The position numbers and the translations under genes are program-made. The notes below the pieces were generated by a model. It saw only the letters and a program-made list of their open reading frames with translations. It had not been told where the DNA came from and ran no database searches. Shown here piece by piece: positions 5,696 to 12,963 of a stretch of DNA of 63,800 nt. The DNA comes from Nodosilinea sp. LEGE 07298 (GTDB lineage: Bacteria > Cyanobacteriota > Cyanobacteriia > Phormidesmidales > Phormidesmidaceae), in the NCBI RefSeq assembly GCF_015207265.1, contig NZ_JADEXE010000003.1:1-63800 (forward strand), given 5' to 3'. Position 1 is the first letter of the stretch; the number at the start of each line of letters is the position of its first letter.

Positions 5696-6220
5696 ATGGC
5701 TGATTTTTATGTAAGCTGGGACGATTATCACCGCGATATTGAAAAGCTGGCCGTCCAGATTTACGAATCGGGCTGGGAGTTCAACCAGATTGTTTGCTTG
5801 GCCAAGGGCGGGCTGCGGATTGGCGATACCCTCTGCCGCCTGTTTGACGTGCCGCTGGCTATTTTATCTACAGCCTCCTACGGCGGATCCGATGGTCGCA
5901 CTCGGGGAGCTATCACCTTCTCCCGCGATTTGAGCATGACCACCCCTAGCCTGGGCAGTCAGGTGCTGATCGTTGACGACCTGGTCGACTCGGGCTACAG
6001 CCTGAAGAAATCGATGGACTGGCTACGCCACAAGTACGGCTTCTACATTGAAGATCTGCGCACGGCGGTGCTGTGGTACAAGGCCGAATCCATTATCAAG
6101 CCCGACTACCACGTGGTCTACCTGCCCGACAACCCCTGGATTCACCAGCCCTTTGAGCGCTACGAAACCATGACCCCGGCTGAACTGGCAGCTAATTATC
6201 AACCGGAACCTGCTTCCTGA
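5696..6220 (+). CDS. Phosphoribosyltransferase (type I fold)
   Basis: A 174-residue cytoplasmic protein with the PRPP-binding loop QVLIVDDLVDSGYSLK (about residues 88-103), in which the acidic pair DD and the following small-residue loop bind PRPP phosphate. The upstream CLAKGGLRIGDTL segment matches the pyrophosphate-binding loop of xanthine/hypoxanthine-type PRTases. This architecture fits a purine PRTase, but substrate specificity is not evident and no pathway neighbours help. I prefer the ATG at 5696, seven bases after AGGAG; the ATG at 5690 is only one base away from it. Its 3' end overlaps the convergent TPR gene by 29 bases. Confidence 0.82.
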   Translation: MADFYVSWDDYHRDIEKLAVQIYESGWEFNQIVCLAKGGLRIGDTLCRLFDVPLAILSTASYGGSDGRTRGAITFSRDLSMTTPSLGSQVLIVDDLVDSGYSLKKSMDWLRHKYGFYIEDLRTAVLWYKAESIIKPDYHVVYLPDNPWIHQPFERYETMTPAELAANYQPEPAS

Positions 6221-7376
6221 GTGGGGCAAGCTGGGCTGGAGACTGAACTGGGGCCGCCGAAGCCTCTGGCTCTCCGTAGAGACGCTGGTAGCCCCAGTAA
6301 CCCACCAGCAGCGTGACCAGCGTGAGGGAGGCAATTCCCCCGGCGCGGCACAGGCCCTGAATGGCCTTGGAGGCCCGCAGCGCGGTCAGGTAGTCGCCAC
6401 GCTGGTAGGCCTGGCGCAGGTTCATAGCGCAGGCCAGAGCGGGAATGCCCAGCGGCGGAAAAATCACGAAGGCTGTCAGCAGTACCCGATGCCAACGAGC
6501 CGGAGGGCAGGGCTGTCCCTGAAAGAGCTTGTAGCTGCCCCGCCACTCGACCACCGTCTGGTCCTGCACCTGCCCGGTGAGTTCAAAGCTTTGCACTTCG
6601 TCTAGCTGCCATTTGATAATTAAGGTGCGAATTTGGTCGGGCAGGGTGAAGTAGTTGATGCCGACCCCCACCGGGCGGTACACCTGAATCCGCAGGCTGT
6701 CGTCCTGGTGCTGGGCTACAACAGCAATCTGCCGTAGGCCTAGCTCTGTCTGCAGGCGCTGGGAAAGGGCGCGATCGCGGTGGGCCTGGTACTGGTGCTG
6801 TAATTTTAGCCGCGCCTGATCGAGGTTGAGATCGTTACAGAGCACCAGTTCCCAGTCGTTGGCAGCGGCGGCGGGCTGGCCTAGCTGTTCGTGGGTGTAG
6901 CCTCGGTGAAGGTAGGCCTCAGCCAGATTGGGGTTAGCGGCAATGGCGGCATTAAAGTCAGCCAGGGCAGCGGTGTAGTGTTGCTGCCGAAAATACAGCA
7001 GCCCCCGGTTGTAGTAAATCAGGGCGTGGCCAGGCTGCTGTTCCAGACCCCGTTGCCAGTCGGCCAAAGCCAGGTCATCCTGCCCCTGGTGGCAGTAGAG
7101 CAGGCCACGGTTGCCGTAGGCGCGCACACTGGTGGGGTCGAGGGCGATCGCGGCGGTAAAATGGTCTAGCGCCGACGCCGTATTCCCCATGTGCCAATGG
7201 GCCTTACCCAACTCAATATGAATATCGACCGGACAGGGATAACCGTCTAGCGCCTGGGACAAAATCGCCAGTGCCGCATCGACGTTACCCTGACGAATCA
7301 GGGTAAGAGCCTGCCGATAGCGATACCGAGCCTGCTGACGGCGCAACCAGGGGGTAAGGTAAAGTCCCATGAGCAT
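6192..7376 (-). CDS. TPR protein with C-terminal CD225/dispanin-like membrane domain
   Basis: A 394-residue protein. Residues about 15-190 form at least four tetratricopeptide repeats (for example ALDHFTAAIALDPTSVRAYG and ALADFNAAIAANPNLAEAYL), a protein-protein interaction scaffold. The middle part (about 200-290) is a beta-rich region of unknown nature. Residues about 300-365 resemble the CD225/dispanin family: a hydrophobic segment ending PPLGIPALACAMNLRQAYQ, then RGDYLTALRASKAIQ and a second membrane segment ending in LLVGYWGYQ. That family is membrane-associated. The function of the fusion is unknown. The short N-terminal segment may also touch the membrane. It overlaps the convergent PRTase gene at its 3' end. 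Confidence 0.75.
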   Translation of the reverse strand: MLMGLYLTPWLRRQQARYRYRQALTLIRQGNVDAALAILSQALDGYPCPVDIHIELGKAHWHMGNTASALDHFTAAIALDPTSVRAYGNRGLLYCHQGQDDLALADWQRGLEQQPGHALIYYNRGLLYFRQQHYTAALADFNAAIAANPNLAEAYLHRGYTHEQLGQPAAAANDWELVLCNDLNLDQARLKLQHQYQAHRDRALSQRLQTELGLRQIAVVAQHQDDSLRIQVYRPVGVGINYFTLPDQIRTLIIKWQLDEVQSFELTGQVQDQTVVEWRGSYKLFQGQPCPPARWHRVLLTAFVIFPPLGIPALACAMNLRQAYQRGDYLTALRASKAIQGLCRAGGIASLTLVTLLVGYWGYQRLYGEPEASAAPVQSPAQLAPLRKQVPVDN

Positions 7377-7543: not shown

Positions 7544-8206
7544 TTAGCAGAGGGGGGGATCGCTAGCCCTTTCGTCAATCTCAGCTGCCTTGAGGGCTAC
7601 CGAGGCAATCGTTAGGGTTAACCTTGCCTGCTCTAGGTCAGACAGCGAGGCCCATTCGGTAGCCGGAATCGCCCGCAGGTTTAGCTCTAAAATTTCGCCC
7701 CGGCCATCGCGCAGCGAGTAGGCCAAGGGCCGGGCCAGCACCGCCAGGTCGTCGATGTTCCAGCCAGGTAAGATATCGCCCACGCACTGCACCAGCTGAT
7801 CGATTAGGGGCTGACCGCTACGGGCCAGGGTAGTAGCTGACGTAGCCAGGCTTTGTAATAGCTCACCGGGTAGCCGTCCCTGAAACTGACGCAGCTGATC
7901 GAGCACCGAGGTAGCTGCTGCCAGGGCCAGGCCTGGCGTGGATTGAGCAGCGACTTGAGCCCCGTTCATTTGAGTCGTGATTTGGGCCGCTAGGGTTTGC
8001 CATCCCGCTGCGATCGCGGTATTGAGGTCATCATCGGCCAGAGCATCAAACTCGGTCTCTAGGCCAGTTAGATAGCCCTCTGCCTCTGGAGCTAGCGGCT
8101 GCCAGGGGTACGCCGGTTCAGCATGAAGAATCGTGGCAAGCAAATCGTGTTCGGCGGCCATAGCGGGCTCAGAGGCAGAATTGGGGTTGTGGGATGGCTG
8201 GGTCAT
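7544..8206 (-). CDS. Helical protein of unknown function, last gene of the PP2C/CHAT cluster
   Basis: A 220-residue soluble protein I do not recognise. It has no signal peptide or membrane segment. The first 30 residues are polar and probably disordered; the rest is predominantly helix-forming and rich in Ala, Leu and Gln, with a stretch near 165-190 (SLRDGRGEILELNLRAIP) that could be a short beta hairpin. It follows the CHAT-FHA gene after a 102-base gap on the same strand, and that gene follows the PP2C gene after 57 bases, so co-transcription is likely. By position it could be an adaptor or a substrate of the CHAT protein, but nothing in its sequence proves that. Confidence 0.7.
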   Translation of the reverse strand: MTQPSHNPNSASEPAMAAEHDLLATILHAEPAYPWQPLAPEAEGYLTGLETEFDALADDDLNTAIAAGWQTLAAQITTQMNGAQVAAQSTPGLALAAATSVLDQLRQFQGRLPGELLQSLATSATTLARSGQPLIDQLVQCVGDILPGWNIDDLAVLARPLAYSLRDGRGEILELNLRAIPATEWASLSDLEQARLTLTIASVALKAAEIDERASDPPLC

Positions 8207-8308
8207 AGCATTATCTATAGATGCACGAGAGGATAACAGTACCTGATGTCAGTGGATACATTGTGCCGCTGGAGGATTCCGTACGGCGTGAACAATTTGC
8301 CGTTTTTA

Positions 8309-9949
8309 CTAGCAGGGTGGGGGAGAGTTGGGGCTACCCTCCAGGGTAAATTCCATCAGTTCGCCATCTTGACTACCAAATCGCAGCGCCGTACCCAGGG
8401 CCAGGGGCACCTCGCTCCGGTGTACAAGCTGCCAGGAGCCACCATCACCGTAGTAGTAGGAGCCGTTGCGCGACATATCCCGCAGGTAATAACATGTCTC
8501 CGGTACCCCCTGCTCAAATTGGGTGCGGCTGAAAATTTCGGCATGCTGCCCTGACACCCAAGGCTCTAAAATCACCAGGTCATTGTCAGGTAGCCGCCCC
8601 ACCCGCAGATAGCCATCATAGAGTCGCCACATTCGAGACGGATTGTTTAGGCAGCGCAGCACCACCGACTGAGTCGACTGTAGATCTTGACCCGGCAGCT
8701 GGGTCACCGCCAGCCCAACCTCGTGCAGCAGGTGTCCGTCAAACTGAGGATGCTGATAGAGTACCGGCAACGTCCAGGCAGTATGGTTAAACCGATAGGC
8801 CGTCAGCAGGTGCTGTCGGGCCAGGGCAACGGCCTGGGCGATCGGCTGCCGCTCGGCCAGGCCCCGAGCCAGCACCTGAATAAAGCTCAAGGCCTCGTGG
8901 TCGGCGATCGAGTCGCGCATCGCCAGTACCGCTGGCACACCGTGGTGCAGCAGCACCTCCGCCAGGCTGCTGCGGGGAATCACCTGCTGCTGAAGCAGGT
9001 CGGGCTGGGCTCCCCAGCAGGTGTTAAATACCGCCAGGCGAATGCCGTTGGGAGCTAACCCTTGGGCCAGTTCAGTGCCACTCAGGCTGCCCCCCTGGCG
9101 CAAAAACAGCAGTCCCCCATCGGGGGCGGGTACCCCATGCCCCGCATAGAAAAATACGTTAAAGTACCCGGTTTCTAGGGCTTTTAGCAGCGTTTTGGCA
9201 TCGGGTTCGATCAGAGTTTGCACTTGGCAAACGACTGGGTTAGCCCCCTGATAGCTAAGGCGAGAGGCGCTGAGCTCTAGCAACTGCTTGAGGGCTTCGG
9301 CCTCCTGGGGCAGCTGCAAGACGTTCTTAGCACCCTCTGCGCTGCCCGGATCATCCTGCCCTAGCACCAGCAAAATGCGCAGAGAGGTGTCTGGTTCAGC
9401 CTCCAGCAGCGGACCTACAGCGCTGGCGGTACGGCTGAACAGCACCTGCGGCCCCAGCGATAGGGCCGGGCAGCCAGGCTGAGGCTGCATAATTTCCCAA
9501 GGCAGGCTAATTAGCTCGTGGGGACGCACTTCTAGCCGTAGTTTGAGCGGACGTTTTTGGCCAATGGCCATGCCCAAGCTGCGCTCTAGGGTCTGGCGAA
9601 TCGGGCCGTCAAACAACCATTCCCACAGGCTTACCCCTAACCCCTGCATCAATCGACCGGTTTTGCCCCCCGTCTCCGCCGCTGGGGCAACCCGGTCGAG
9701 CAAATCATCAAGGTGGAACTCTGGGACGTAGGCCGAGGGCACGTGGGGCACCTGAGGCAGTCCCCGCAGCGAAAAAAACTGCTGCCAGTTCTCCCAAAGC
9801 TGGGCCATCTGGCTATCCCATAGGCGATCGTGGTGGGCATAGCCGCCCGGAAACGGGCTTTCTAACACCCAAATGGCATAGTGATTAGACTCGACCTGGG
9901 TGAGGCGATCGATGGCAAGGCTGAGGGTGAGAGCATCGGACGACAGCAT
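8309..9949 (-). CDS. CHAT caspase-like domain protein with C-terminal FHA domain
   Basis: A 546-residue soluble protein. Residues about 130-400 form a CHAT domain (caspase HetF associated with TPRs), with the expected catalytic dyad: His271 in YAGHG and Cys311 in FNTCWG, followed by the conserved LLHHGVPAVLAMRDSI segment. Residues about 440-535 form an FHA domain with the phosphothreonine-binding set VGR (Arg452), SGQH (466-469) and RNGS (494-497). The first 125 residues are a family-specific N-terminal part. CHAT proteins are cysteine peptidases where tested; FHA domains bind phosphothreonine. Together they suggest a protease recruited to a phosphorylated partner. The neighbouring upstream gene encodes a PP2C phosphatase. 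Function is unknown. Confidence 0.87.
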   Translation of the reverse strand: MLSSDALTLSLAIDRLTQVESNHYAIWVLESPFPGGYAHHDRLWDSQMAQLWENWQQFFSLRGLPQVPHVPSAYVPEFHLDDLLDRVAPAAETGGKTGRLMQGLGVSLWEWLFDGPIRQTLERSLGMAIGQKRPLKLRLEVRPHELISLPWEIMQPQPGCPALSLGPQVLFSRTASAVGPLLEAEPDTSLRILLVLGQDDPGSAEGAKNVLQLPQEAEALKQLLELSASRLSYQGANPVVCQVQTLIEPDAKTLLKALETGYFNVFFYAGHGVPAPDGGLLFLRQGGSLSGTELAQGLAPNGIRLAVFNTCWGAQPDLLQQQVIPRSSLAEVLLHHGVPAVLAMRDSIADHEALSFIQVLARGLAERQPIAQAVALARQHLLTAYRFNHTAWTLPVLYQHPQFDGHLLHEVGLAVTQLPGQDLQSTQSVVLRCLNNPSRMWRLYDGYLRVGRLPDNDLVILEPWVSGQHAEIFSRTQFEQGVPETCYYLRDMSRNGSYYYGDGGSWQLVHRSEVPLALGTALRFGSQDGELMEFTLEGSPNSPPPC

Positions 9950-10006
9950 AGGCAGGCCGAAATCAACAGGGCCAAAAAGGTGGATTTAGGAACTGAAGCA
10001 AGCCGG

Positions 10007-12394
10007 TTAGGGCAGGCAGCGGCCCGATTGGGCTGGGGTAACCAACTCTAAAAAGGCCGCTGCTCTGTAAAGTTGGCGGGTCTGTACCCAGCCTTCATCG
10101 CCGGGGGCTAGGAGCTGCTGGCTTAGGTTGGGGTTAGCCGCTGATATGGGGGGCTGGCTAGTCTCCTGGGGACGCTGATCTAGCGATGCCCCGGAAGGAA
10201 TAGAGCAAACCCGTAACCGTACCCAGTCGACATTGTCAGCTGTGGTTTGGCGACTGACAACCCTAAGAACACTACCCGTCGCCACTGAGGCGTTAGCCAC
10301 CCCAGCGTCGGCTGGCGGCCCTGGCTGCGATCGCAGCAGCAGGCCGTTGGTCTCAAGGCCAGGGGTTGCAGCCTGCTGTGACTGCCAATACGACCCCACA
10401 GGCACGTCAACGGTAGCGGCCAGAGCGGTGGCGGGCAGCGGTTGTCCCGCTAGGGCCGCGATTGACCAGCTTGTTTGCAGGGGCTGTAGCGCCACTGGGG
10501 CTTGGGGCCGTCGGTCCCAGGCCAGGGCCACTGCCCCCAAACCAGTCAGCACCACGGCTATACCCCCCAAAAACGGACCCCAGGCCATGCCTGAGCGGGC
10601 AGGCCTGACATTGGCCTGTGTCGTTGGGGAAACAACTGGAGTGGATGGCGGCACGGTCTTTGGAAACGCAGCGGGGACGGTATCCGAATCGTGATCAAGA
10701 GTCGGATTGGCCTGCCGCAGCGGTCCGGGAGGGAGGGTCGGTAGGGCACCCGGCTGCGGGATAAACCGCATCAGCCCAACGGTGACATTGTCGTGACCAT
10801 TGAGTCGATTGGCTTGCTGTATAAGGGCTTCGACCGTAGGGCTAATCGGGCCAGGGGCGCTTGTCAGGGGCGCAACTAGGTAGGGGGCCAGGGCTTCAAC
10901 GCGATCGTAATCGCTCAGTCCGTCAGAGCACAGTAGTAGCACTGCTCTGTCGTCAAGCAGCAGATGCTGCACCGTGGGGTAAAGCAAGTCAGAGTCACTA
11001 ATGCCTAGGGCCTGAATCAAGGCCCCTCCACTGGGTAGCTGCGCCGCTTCAGAGTAAAGGGCATAGCCCATCTGGGCTTCACGCGAAGCGACATCATCGT
11101 CGACGGTAATTTGGTAGCAGGTGCGGGGGCTAACGCGATAGGCTCGACTATCGCCCACGTGGGCAATGGAAACGTAGGGGAAATGCACCAAAGCCACTAC
11201 TACCGTCGTACCCATGCGGGCTCGGGCCGATCGCTGTTCGTCGTTGTTGCGAGCTGCGATCGCGTCGTTGGCCAAAATTAGCGCCTGTCTGAGGCGCTGG
11301 GCGATCGCAGCCAGAGACAAATGGGGCTGCTGAGTCAGCGGTTCAAGCTCCTGCTGTAGCAGCTTGATTGCGGTTTGCGAGGCCACATTACCCTGTTCGT
11401 GACCACCGATGCCGTCGCACACCAGCAGCAGGGGCGGCGTCTCAACCCCCTCTGTCTGCCCAGTCAACCGCTGCTGGCGGGGATCCTTTTCTGGGTAGCA
11501 GGCGTCTTCATTGCGATCGCGGGTAGGCCCCTGGTCAGTATCGGCTGCCCAGTCTACCGTCACCAACAGCCCCTGGCCCAGGGTTTGAATCGCTCCCTCA
11601 ATCTCGGCCAGCAAATCTTTGGCAGAGGCTATGTGCCCGTCCTTGAGAGCCTTGACTAGCCACTTCAAGTAAGGACGCACCGACGGCTGGGCTGTCGCTA
11701 CCAAGTCATGCCACCGCTGGCCAAGCTGGGTCAGCGTAGGGCTAGCGCCATCGGCCACCAGGGTCGTGAGCCGCAGCAGGGCTCCATCGGCCCGAAGTCC
11801 GTCTAGATCTAGCAGGGTTGCAACCACCCGCTCGGTGGCCAGTACAGGCCATAGACTGGCAACCTGCCGTAGCCAATTCAGCTGCTGCAAGGCCGATCCC
11901 TGAGTCCAGATTTGGGCTAGGGTGGGCAAAAATACCGCTTCGATCTGCCCCCCTGAGGTTGAATCTAGGGAAGAGCCTGCATTTTCAGCCGCCGGATACG
12001 TGATCCGAACGCCAATGGGAGCCATGTCGAGCATCAGGACGGGCGTCGACAGCCCCGTTTGTTCTGGAGTCAGGTAGGCATAGGGCCGAGGAATATGCTG
12101 AGCCAGAGAAAATAGCTTTAGATAGTTCAGCACCGAAGCTGGAATCTGCTCCAGAGACGGGGTGGGATGATCGGGCCGAGTGTCTAACCAGATCTGATGC
12201 CCGGCTGGAGTTGATTTTGAACCGTCATTCCAAACCAAAAATCGGCCTGCAATCAGTGAGCCAGAATGGGTTGCCACAGGCCCATCGCCCACCGCTAGCA
12301 AAAAGCGGTATGGCAAAGGAGTCTGGCAAACCTTACAGTGGCTGGCAGGTGGGGTCGAGATCGACCGACAGGATGGATTAGAACACTGGATCAC
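10007..12394 (-). CDS. PP2C-type protein phosphatase with zinc ribbon, membrane anchor and SH3-like tail
   Basis: A 795-residue protein that should remove phosphate from Ser/Thr in partner proteins. Cys4, Cys9, Cys20 and Cys23 form an N-terminal zinc ribbon. Residues about 45-250 look like a degenerate kinase-like region. Residues about 278-550 are the PP2C domain, with the metal-binding motifs TRDRNED (291-297), LVCDGIGGHEQG (324-335), LLLCSDGLSDYD and NGHDNVTVGLM. One membrane segment follows near 605-628, then an SH3b-like C-terminal part (LLLRSQPG, VLRVVSR, GDEGWVQTRQL). The start is a GTG, with GAGGA just upstream but inside a long hairpin. It is first in a likely operon with the CHAT-FHA gene, 57 bases away. 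Confidence 0.9.
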   Translation of the reverse strand: MIQCSNPSCRSISTPPASHCKVCQTPLPYRFLLAVGDGPVATHSGSLIAGRFLVWNDGSKSTPAGHQIWLDTRPDHPTPSLEQIPASVLNYLKLFSLAQHIPRPYAYLTPEQTGLSTPVLMLDMAPIGVRITYPAAENAGSSLDSTSGGQIEAVFLPTLAQIWTQGSALQQLNWLRQVASLWPVLATERVVATLLDLDGLRADGALLRLTTLVADGASPTLTQLGQRWHDLVATAQPSVRPYLKWLVKALKDGHIASAKDLLAEIEGAIQTLGQGLLVTVDWAADTDQGPTRDRNEDACYPEKDPRQQRLTGQTEGVETPPLLLVCDGIGGHEQGNVASQTAIKLLQQELEPLTQQPHLSLAAIAQRLRQALILANDAIAARNNDEQRSARARMGTTVVVALVHFPYVSIAHVGDSRAYRVSPRTCYQITVDDDVASREAQMGYALYSEAAQLPSGGALIQALGISDSDLLYPTVQHLLLDDRAVLLLCSDGLSDYDRVEALAPYLVAPLTSAPGPISPTVEALIQQANRLNGHDNVTVGLMRFIPQPGALPTLPPGPLRQANPTLDHDSDTVPAAFPKTVPPSTPVVSPTTQANVRPARSGMAWGPFLGGIAVVLTGLGAVALAWDRRPQAPVALQPLQTSWSIAALAGQPLPATALAATVDVPVGSYWQSQQAATPGLETNGLLLRSQPGPPADAGVANASVATGSVLRVVSRQTTADNVDWVRLRVCSIPSGASLDQRPQETSQPPISAANPNLSQQLLAPGDEGWVQTRQLYRAAAFLELVTPAQSGRCLP

Positions 12395-12396
12395 GA

Positions 12397-12466
12397 TCCT
12401 CGGGGGTAGATAAACAGCTTATAGTTTCTACTGGTATATCTCTAAATGGTATCTAACCCCCGAGGA
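12397..12466 (-). promoter_or_regulatory. Long hairpin sequestering the PP2C ribosome binding site
   Basis: In the mRNA (minus strand) TCCTCGGGGGTTAGATA (12466-12450) pairs with TATCTACCCCCGAGGA (12412-12397): 16 pairs with a single bulged base and a 37-base loop. The 3' arm ends in GAGGA, the only Shine-Dalgarno-like sequence, two bases before the GTG start at 12394. Opening this stem would be needed for efficient initiation, so translational control is a reasonable inference. As DNA it is also a large dyad that could bind a protein. The rest of the 221-base spacer to ndhM holds nothing I recognise. Confidence 0.65.
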
Positions 12467-12615: not shown

Positions 12616-12963
12616 TTAGCTAGCCGACTCCTCGGTTTCAATTCGGGGTAGGCCCATGCTGTAGTTGAGGGCACGGCTTTTAAGGTTGTAGCTAATCTCT
12701 CCCTTCTGCAAAAGCTGGCGCACAAAATGCTCTAAATCGGAGCCAATGCGGCGTAAGTTGTAGTCGGTCAAATCTTCTCCAGCAGCGGCATCGACTAGGC
12801 GGTCAAACTCGGCGTAGACGGCTTTAAGCGCGTCTTCGGACCAGTTGAACTCATTATCGGGGTCGATGTCTAAGGTGAGTTTATCGTCGCTAGGCACCAG
12901 TTCGTTGTTAGCAACGATGGCGGTATAAATATGGACGTGCCGGGTCGTTGATTTGAGCATCAT
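12616..12963 (-). CDS. ndhM: NAD(P)H-quinone oxidoreductase subunit M
   Basis: NdhM is a small peripheral subunit of the cyanobacterial and chloroplast NDH-1 complex that helps connect the hydrophilic arm to the thylakoid membrane and supports cyclic electron flow. The 115-residue product starts LKSTTRHVHIYTA and contains the highly conserved stretches LTLDIDPDNEFNW, DLTDYNLRRIGSDLEHF and GEISYNLKSRALNYSMGLP, covering nearly the whole protein. Length is normal. Two ATG codons are adjacent at the start. It stands alone, downstream of gloB on the same strand with 125 bases between, which contain a seven-base-pair GCCCCAG/CTGGGGC stem (13005-13032). Confidence 0.93.
   Translation of the reverse strand: MMLKSTTRHVHIYTAIVANNELVPSDDKLTLDIDPDNEFNWSEDALKAVYAEFDRLVDAAAGEDLTDYNLRRIGSDLEHFVRQLLQKGEISYNLKSRALNYSMGLPRIETEESAS

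Follow-up and report, generated by a model that had tools for sequence, protein, structure and literature searches.

Do a PP2C phosphatase, a CHAT-FHA protein and a small helical protein that are encoded side by side in the cyanobacterium Nodosilinea sp. LEGE 07298 form a unit, and what would such a unit do? The three genes occupy positions 7,544 to 12,466 of the 63,800-nucleotide stretch of DNA analysed here (the window), all on the minus strand, to which the coordinates of their parts given below also refer. They are the PP2C gene (10007–12394, an open reading frame (ORF) of 795 amino acids with a GTG start), the CHAT-FHA gene (8309–9949, 546 amino acids, protein P0002) and the gene of the helical protein (7544–8206, 220 amino acids, protein P0001), with intergenic gaps of 57 nt between PP2C and CHAT-FHA and 102 nt between CHAT-FHA and the helical gene. 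An initial annotation had proposed a phosphorylation-regulated protease locus here, and its three closely spaced genes are confirmed by the ORFs and their Pfam domains. Our preferred explanation, which we consider about evenly balanced between being right and wrong, is an operon-like inherited cyanobacterial regulatory unit, in which a HetF-like protease has a dedicated helical partner and is probably controlled by phosphorylation.

Conservation of the gene order

In a first survey of 30 loci of relatives, read with about 1.5 kb of flank and searched by single-sequence tblastn, the helical gene was found in 25 and PP2C in 24. The loci referred to below as named loci are the best 80 of 382 relatives, retrieved with a profile of 15 orthologues (alignment A1) from a one-genome-per-species collection. 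With profiles rebuilt from these loci, a neighbour was counted as adjacent when it lay within 1500 nt on the same strand, and flanks of at least 2600 nt upstream and at least 1500 nt downstream were required. PP2C lies immediately upstream of CHAT-FHA in 57 of the 67 testable named loci, the helical gene lies immediately downstream in 66 of 72; of the 60 loci with two readable sides, 47 have both neighbours. The three-gene arrangement is therefore not due to chance, and homologues scattered without linkage, which the initial annotation regarded as fatal to the idea of a system, are not what the relatives display. When the 19 loci with identities of at least 71% were left out, the counts were 39 of 49 for PP2C, 49 of 55 for the helical gene and 31 of 44 for both. 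Judged by gene order, PP2C, CHAT-FHA and the helical gene are a conserved unit.

Co-occurrence of CHAT-FHA and the helical gene

A sample of 292 genomes from across the phylum was searched with E cut-offs of 1e-70 for CHAT-FHA, 1e-4 for the helical protein, 1e-50 for PP2C and 1e-150 for HetF. CHAT-FHA was found in 68 genomes from 18 families (f22 among them) and the helical gene in 70; 67 genomes carry both and 71 carry either, a ratio of 0.94. All three genes adjoin in the order of the window in 37 of the 68 CHAT-FHA genomes, representing 9 of the 18 families, and the best PP2C match lies directly upstream of CHAT-FHA in 39 of the 68. CHAT-FHA is directly followed by the helical gene in 50 genomes; in 17 that gene is elsewhere, and in one it was not found.

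Of the 17 unlinked helical genes, 13 are on a different contig and four are far off on the same one. In the 15 of these genomes whose surroundings were read (5 to 9.5 kb), no CHAT-FHA gene lies near the helical gene, and the other genes vary, being partly common to related genomes; in three of the 15, a gene that looks hemC-like by eye stands nearby (L112:4686-5672, L114:3474-4436, L116:1780-2754). Similarly, six named loci have no helical gene at the locus (L055, L060, L068, L071, L072 and L107), and five of these six genomes carry one elsewhere; both positive-control genomes of this search for relocated genes gave matches. Within two genera, too, the two genes are present or absent together. 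In genus g58, G176 has both genes, far apart, and G180 and G215 have neither; in genus g34, G243 has both, on different contigs, and G094 and G118 have neither. One of the checks on within-genus and discordant genomes was run without its own positive control; the same profile gave matches in the search for relocated helical genes. The initial annotation tied the three genes together by their spacing; the link between CHAT-FHA and the helical gene turns out to be stronger than that, as the two co-occur even when they are unlinked.

CHAT-FHA gives a single match per genome in 67 of the 68 carriers, and in the 68th the match is split in two pieces. Vertical inheritance of the three-gene unit forms part of our best explanation and shares the roughly even standing of the whole.

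A predicted cysteine protease with an FHA domain

Pfam recognises in P0002 a CHAT domain (PF12770; residues 105–392, E 3.4e-19, 69.8 bits against a gathering score of 24) followed by an FHA domain (PF00498; residues 449–525, E 5.6e-09, 36.7 bits against 20.7); no TPR was detected by the Pfam scan at E ≤ 1. In the predicted model (mean pLDDT 77.2) the CHAT region extends over residues 6–410 (8720..9934) and resembles both TPR-CHAT and separase: most of residues 2–410 match TPR-CHAT (7zoq_A) with Z 23.3, 326 aligned residues and rmsd 3.5, and human separase (7nj1_A) is matched with Z 21.3, 304 aligned residues and rmsd 3.7. The FHA domain, taken as residues 430–538 (8336..8662) from Pfam and the structural match, superposes on the FHA structures of EmbR (2fez; Z 14.8, 99 aligned, rmsd 1.8) and 2ff4_B (Z 14.4, 94 aligned, rmsd 1.3).

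The window protein was aligned with 63 of the 79 named-locus proteins, those passing a length filter (alignment A5, 64 rows). The catalytic residues His271 (codon 9137–9139) and Cys311 (codon 9017–9019) are kept in 64 of 64 rows; the dyad stands at the positions first assigned to it and shows none of the variation that would have spoken against a protease. The FHA domain is less uniform, with Arg452 in 57 rows, Ser466 in 63, His469 in 64 and Asn495 in 10; position 495 holds Tyr, Phe or Trp in 52 rows. We take the Arg, Ser and Asn of the FHA binding loops to be the residues that read phosphothreonine. The window protein has all three, in agreement with the intact FHA domain of the initial annotation; this description does not extend to the relatives, in which the Asn of the NGT motif is present in 10 of the 64 rows and the Arg is lost in seven. 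Among the seven rows without Arg452, PP2C is at the locus in three, absent with about 8 kb read in two, and the flanks are shorter in two; no trend linking loss of Arg452 to loss of PP2C is claimed from these rows. Catalysis is thus more strongly constrained in this family than the canonical reading of phosphothreonine.

The same comparison bears on a very unlikely alternative, in which the CHAT domain has no proteolytic activity and acts as a scaffold instead. CHAT-FHA is known here from sequence and model, and among the papers listed in searches of the open literature none treats a CHAT-FHA protein in its title or the start of its abstract. Against a scaffold stands the invariance of His271 and Cys311 beside FHA residues that vary. 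With parts of known kinds, the combination of CHAT-FHA, PP2C and a partner of an unnamed family appears to be undescribed in the open literature searched.

Relationship to HetF, TPR-CHAT and separase

The nearest curated CHAT family is HetF (NF045509), whose model matches all 64 CHAT-FHA rows at 1e-5 or better (best 6.6e-54). The window protein shares 36.9% identity over 320 residues with the HetF-like protein of its own genome, has the same His/Cys dyad, and the two families occur mostly in the same genomes. In a tree of 20 CHAT domains, eight CHAT-FHA rows stand beside five HetF rows, with support of 96/96 for the HetF group and a modest 70/89 for CHAT-FHA; of the seven other CHAT domains one, L141, groups on the CHAT-FHA and HetF side, and its branch is very long. 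CHAT-FHA is nevertheless distinct from HetF. It scores 153.9 bits, where the cut-off is 1200, and does so through its CHAT part only, and the 836-position HetF model includes transmembrane and TPR parts (excerpt of PMC8406250), whereas CHAT-FHA has 546 residues and an FHA domain after CHAT. As part of the best explanation, and with the same even standing, CHAT-FHA is predicted to belong to the HetF branch of CHAT proteins and to be a cysteine protease of the cytoplasm. On contigs C47, C312, C593 and C293, the window genome (G000) encodes this HetF-like protein, which scores 599 bits, below 1200, and at least three further CHAT proteins besides CHAT-FHA.

This relationship raises an alternative in which the unit belongs to the HetF cell-division pathway as a side arm and cleaves a division or septum regulator. 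HetF is reported to act at the divisome (excerpt of PMC8406250) and to be able to cleave PatU3 (excerpt of PMC12288457), and HetF and CHAT-FHA occur together in 56 of the 69 genomes with either. However, HetF gives no match at 1e-150 in 12 of the 68 genomes with CHAT-FHA; the absence of a TPR from CHAT-FHA and of a Pfam or NCBIfam match from the helical protein also speak against this alternative, which we regard as unlikely. Of those 12 genomes 11 carry the helical gene, in favour of the tie between CHAT-FHA and the helical protein. HetF itself was found in 57 of the 292 genomes, in 30 of them above the curated cut-off. All 30 fall in family f22, which we take to be heterocyst formers.

The best structural match is TPR-CHAT (Csx29) of the type III-E CRISPR system (Craspase), likewise a CHAT protease with a gene of unknown function nearby. 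It differs from CHAT-FHA by its TPR, none being detected in CHAT-FHA, and the CHAT profile retrieves no TPR-CHAT from the PDB by sequence. Substrates of CHAT proteases are commonly encoded nearby, and TPR-CHAT cleaves Csx30 (excerpt of PMC9729208). Because CHAT proteases act in defence there, and because caspase peptidases and FHA are among the domains that a survey found in counter-invader systems of multicellular bacteria (excerpt of PMC8195603), we considered a role of the unit in anti-phage defence or programmed death, with the helical protein as the effector that is cleaved. It is most improbable and was set aside: the PADLOC anti-phage profiles gave nothing significant, with a best E of 0.014 for CHAT-FHA and no match for PP2C or the helical protein, and CHAT-FHA has one match per genome in all but one of its 68 carriers and a gene order that is preserved across nine families, unlike what we would expect of mobile defence genes.

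Cleavage by separase is stimulated by phosphorylation of its substrate, and the enzyme has five phosphate-binding sites (excerpt of PMC12609080). In CHAT-FHA, phosphate reading would come instead from the appended FHA domain. Asp2070 of human separase lines the catalytic pocket (excerpt of PMC12609080); it lies 41 residues after Cys2029, a number taken from a PDB title, and the position 41 residues after Cys311 is Glu352, kept in 64 of 64 rows. A preference of CHAT-FHA for a basic P1 residue is only a guess from this, as the by-eye alignment on a separase motif is ambiguous. We know of no further resemblance to separase in gene layout.

The candidate helical partner

No Pfam family matches P0001 at E ≤ 1 and no NCBIfam model matches it. 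When P0001 was aligned with 55 of the 66 named-locus proteins (alignment A4, 56 rows), no Pfam family matched more than two of the 56 members (best E 0.0019), and a sequence-profile search of the PDB with the family gave no convincing match (best E 0.23). The predicted model is all-helical, with nine helices (mean pLDDT 86.4, pTM 0.63), in keeping with the uncharacterised helical protein described initially. Fold searches with it gave no clear match, with a best Foldseek E of 1.2 and a best VIA-align Z of 6.1 over 83 residues, the latter within the background of helical models. Separase rows among the VIA matches (Z 4.7 and 4.5) are also within that background and were not used.

Conservation in the family is concentrated in two parts. 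The first is a YPWQP motif in a loop (residues 33–37, 8096..8110), with Tyr33 in 53, Pro34 in 53 and Trp35 in 52 of the 56 rows; the second is a C-terminal helical core (residues 134–205, 7592..7807), in which Asp153, Leu154, Arg159, Ser189 and Ala201 are present in all 56. The protein looks more like one that offers a binding surface than like an enzyme.

The PP2C phosphatase

The PP2C protein matches Pfam PP2C_2 (8.6e-11) and PP2C (1.4e-06) above the gathering score. It was aligned with 57 of the 66 named-locus matches, those reaching 650 amino acids (58 rows). An N-terminal zinc ribbon with Cys4, Cys9, Cys20 and Cys23 (12326..12385) has each Cys in 52 to 54 of the 58 rows and is recognised as Pfam DZR in six of 14 relatives. 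The catalytic domain (10760..11539) holds Asp297, Asp327, Asp491 and Asp535, which presumably bind metal and are each kept in 58 of 58 rows. It is followed by a predicted membrane span at about residues 608–626 (10517..10573; hydropathy 2.06), a comparable window being found in 57 of 58 rows, and by a C-terminal tail (10016..10207) in which Cys730 is present in 58 and Cys793 in 56 of the 58 rows. The zinc ribbon and the membrane anchor of the initial annotation are thus both found, whereas its SH3-like tail is weak, SH3_3 being recognised in just one of 14 relatives (E 0.0018).

Cys730 and Cys793 are a possible disulfide, and the layout suggests a receptor-type phosphatase with a single membrane pass and a disulfide-bonded outer part. 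The curated family PRK14559 (NF011149) matches the PP2C part with 1.2e-71, and the catalytic Asp residues are kept; the score of 242.3 bits is below its cut-off of 374, and the window protein differs by its membrane span and a tail with a conserved Cys pair. PrpJ1, a PP2C of heterocysts that is named in one paper, is a possible relative.

Points against an integrated phosphorylation-controlled unit

A number of observations weigh against the explanation given at the outset, with respect both to the coherence of the unit and to its control by phosphorylation. Linkage by itself proves little, as an ndhM-like gene with no apparent functional tie is linked in 49 of the 80 named loci; this yardstick counts gene clusters found in at least five of the more distant loci, with gene labels assigned by eye, and it made a test of co-occurrence necessary. 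Much of the co-occurrence is in turn a matter of lineage, since the overlap of HetF with CHAT-FHA given above corresponds to a ratio of 0.81, the same as its overlap with the helical gene (57 of 70 genomes). The Fisher p of 3e-61 for the CHAT-FHA and helical pair ignores lineage and is not to be taken literally. The pair is also broken in places: the helical gene occurs without CHAT-FHA in G042, G156 and G239, CHAT-FHA occurs without the helical gene in G269, and in the L055 assembly (2.9 Mb), which has CHAT-FHA, no helical gene was found. For G042 the discordance is explained in part, as a remnant that matches the FHA end of CHAT-FHA over about 80 residues (L111:5609-5851, tblastn 1.3e-11) lies between the PP2C and helical genes; from these reading frames, the protease gene has decayed while its two neighbours remain open.

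The position of PP2C is the less secure. PP2C does not adjoin CHAT-FHA in ten named loci (L070, L072, L073, L087, L088, L092, L097, L098, L102 and L108), and its family, frequently with two or three copies per genome, is found in 104 of the 292 genomes and thus well beyond the CHAT-FHA carriers. Because PP2C is commoner than CHAT-FHA, its tie to the pair is weaker. A somewhat doubtful alternative follows, in which only CHAT-FHA and the helical protein are a functional pair, a protease with its substrate or regulator, PP2C being an inherited neighbour and FHA a general docking or structural module. The CHAT-FHA and helical profiles do match each other better in distribution than either does PP2C, the helical gene is still adjacent in nine of the ten testable named loci without PP2C, and the linkage of the ndhM-like gene and the variation of Arg452 fit as well. 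Against it are the adjacency of PP2C in most testable loci and the overlap of the PP2C stop with the CHAT start by one shared base (TGATG or TAATG) in L075, L089 and L093, among just four junctions inspected, which were picked because the ORFs met. An FHA reader next to a phosphatase would also be a natural pairing.

Control by phosphorylation meets further difficulties. No kinase is regularly linked to the locus: a crude motif search through non-overlapping ORFs with 80 or more amino acids flagged only three ORFs, in two of the 80 loci. Phosphothreonine reading may not be general, given the loss of Arg452 in some rows and of Asn495 in most. The phosphorylation-dependent recruitment of the protease proposed initially is consistent with linked PP2Cs that keep all four Asp residues; it sits less well with a PP2C family that is widespread and at times not adjacent, and with FHA domains that are mostly altered. 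Of the proposed mechanism, the part played by FHA and PP2C is the least secure.

Proposed mechanism

We favour a regulatory protease with a helical substrate or regulator, under phosphorylation control, because HetF can cleave PatU3, CHAT substrates are commonly encoded nearby and separase cleavage is stimulated by phosphorylation of the substrate. The sequences establish the gene order, the domains, the intact catalytic residues and the co-occurrence; proteolysis, phospho-docking, the membrane topology, the substrate of the phosphatase and the role of the helical protein are inferences. CHAT-FHA would carry an FHA domain where HetF has its transmembrane and TPR parts, and the helical protein would be its dedicated partner, either a substrate or an activator or inhibitor. 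An unlinked Hanks-type kinase would phosphorylate a target, on which the FHA domain would dock the protease; either this target or the helical protein would then be cut by the protease. PP2C, with a cytoplasmic catalytic domain answering to an outer tail with the conserved Cys pair, would reset the phosphorylation state. More tentatively, and as a possibility we would not call probable, the locus may follow a bacterial separase-like logic, with a separase-fold protease, target phosphorylation read by FHA, an opposing transmembrane PP2C from the same operon, and a helical protein as substrate or securin-like inhibitor.

Neighbouring genes and other features of the locus

In the window, ndhM (12963..12616) lies directly upstream of PP2C, and a gene for a TPR protein whose C-terminal segment is CD225-like (7376..6192; Pfam scan, 2e-06) lies downstream of the helical gene; the latter has a tblastn match in 17 of the 30 short loci of the first survey. 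Other frequent neighbours among the 80 named loci are, by eye, a second FHA-bearing protein of about 450 amino acids in 20 (L070:10662-12068, L088:10480-11820, L108:10612-12012 and others), whose gene follows the helical gene but runs on the opposite strand, and a peptide deformylase-like gene situated beyond it in 17. Promoter-like matches (three, against 1.4 ± 1.4 in shuffled sequences) and terminator-like matches (four, against 4.3) at the locus are not clearly above chance, and an Rfam search of the locus gave no matches.

Significance

CHAT-fold proteases are known from cyanobacterial development (HetF), CRISPR defence (TPR-CHAT) and chromosome segregation (separase). To our knowledge, bacterial proteolysis under the control of Ser/Thr phosphorylation has been little explored, and this locus offers a defined protease, a phospho-reader, a phosphatase and a candidate partner together. 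Work on the helical protein could give a function to a family that is absent from Pfam, and the trio points to an unstudied switch that would couple phosphorylation with protein cutting in many cyanobacteria.

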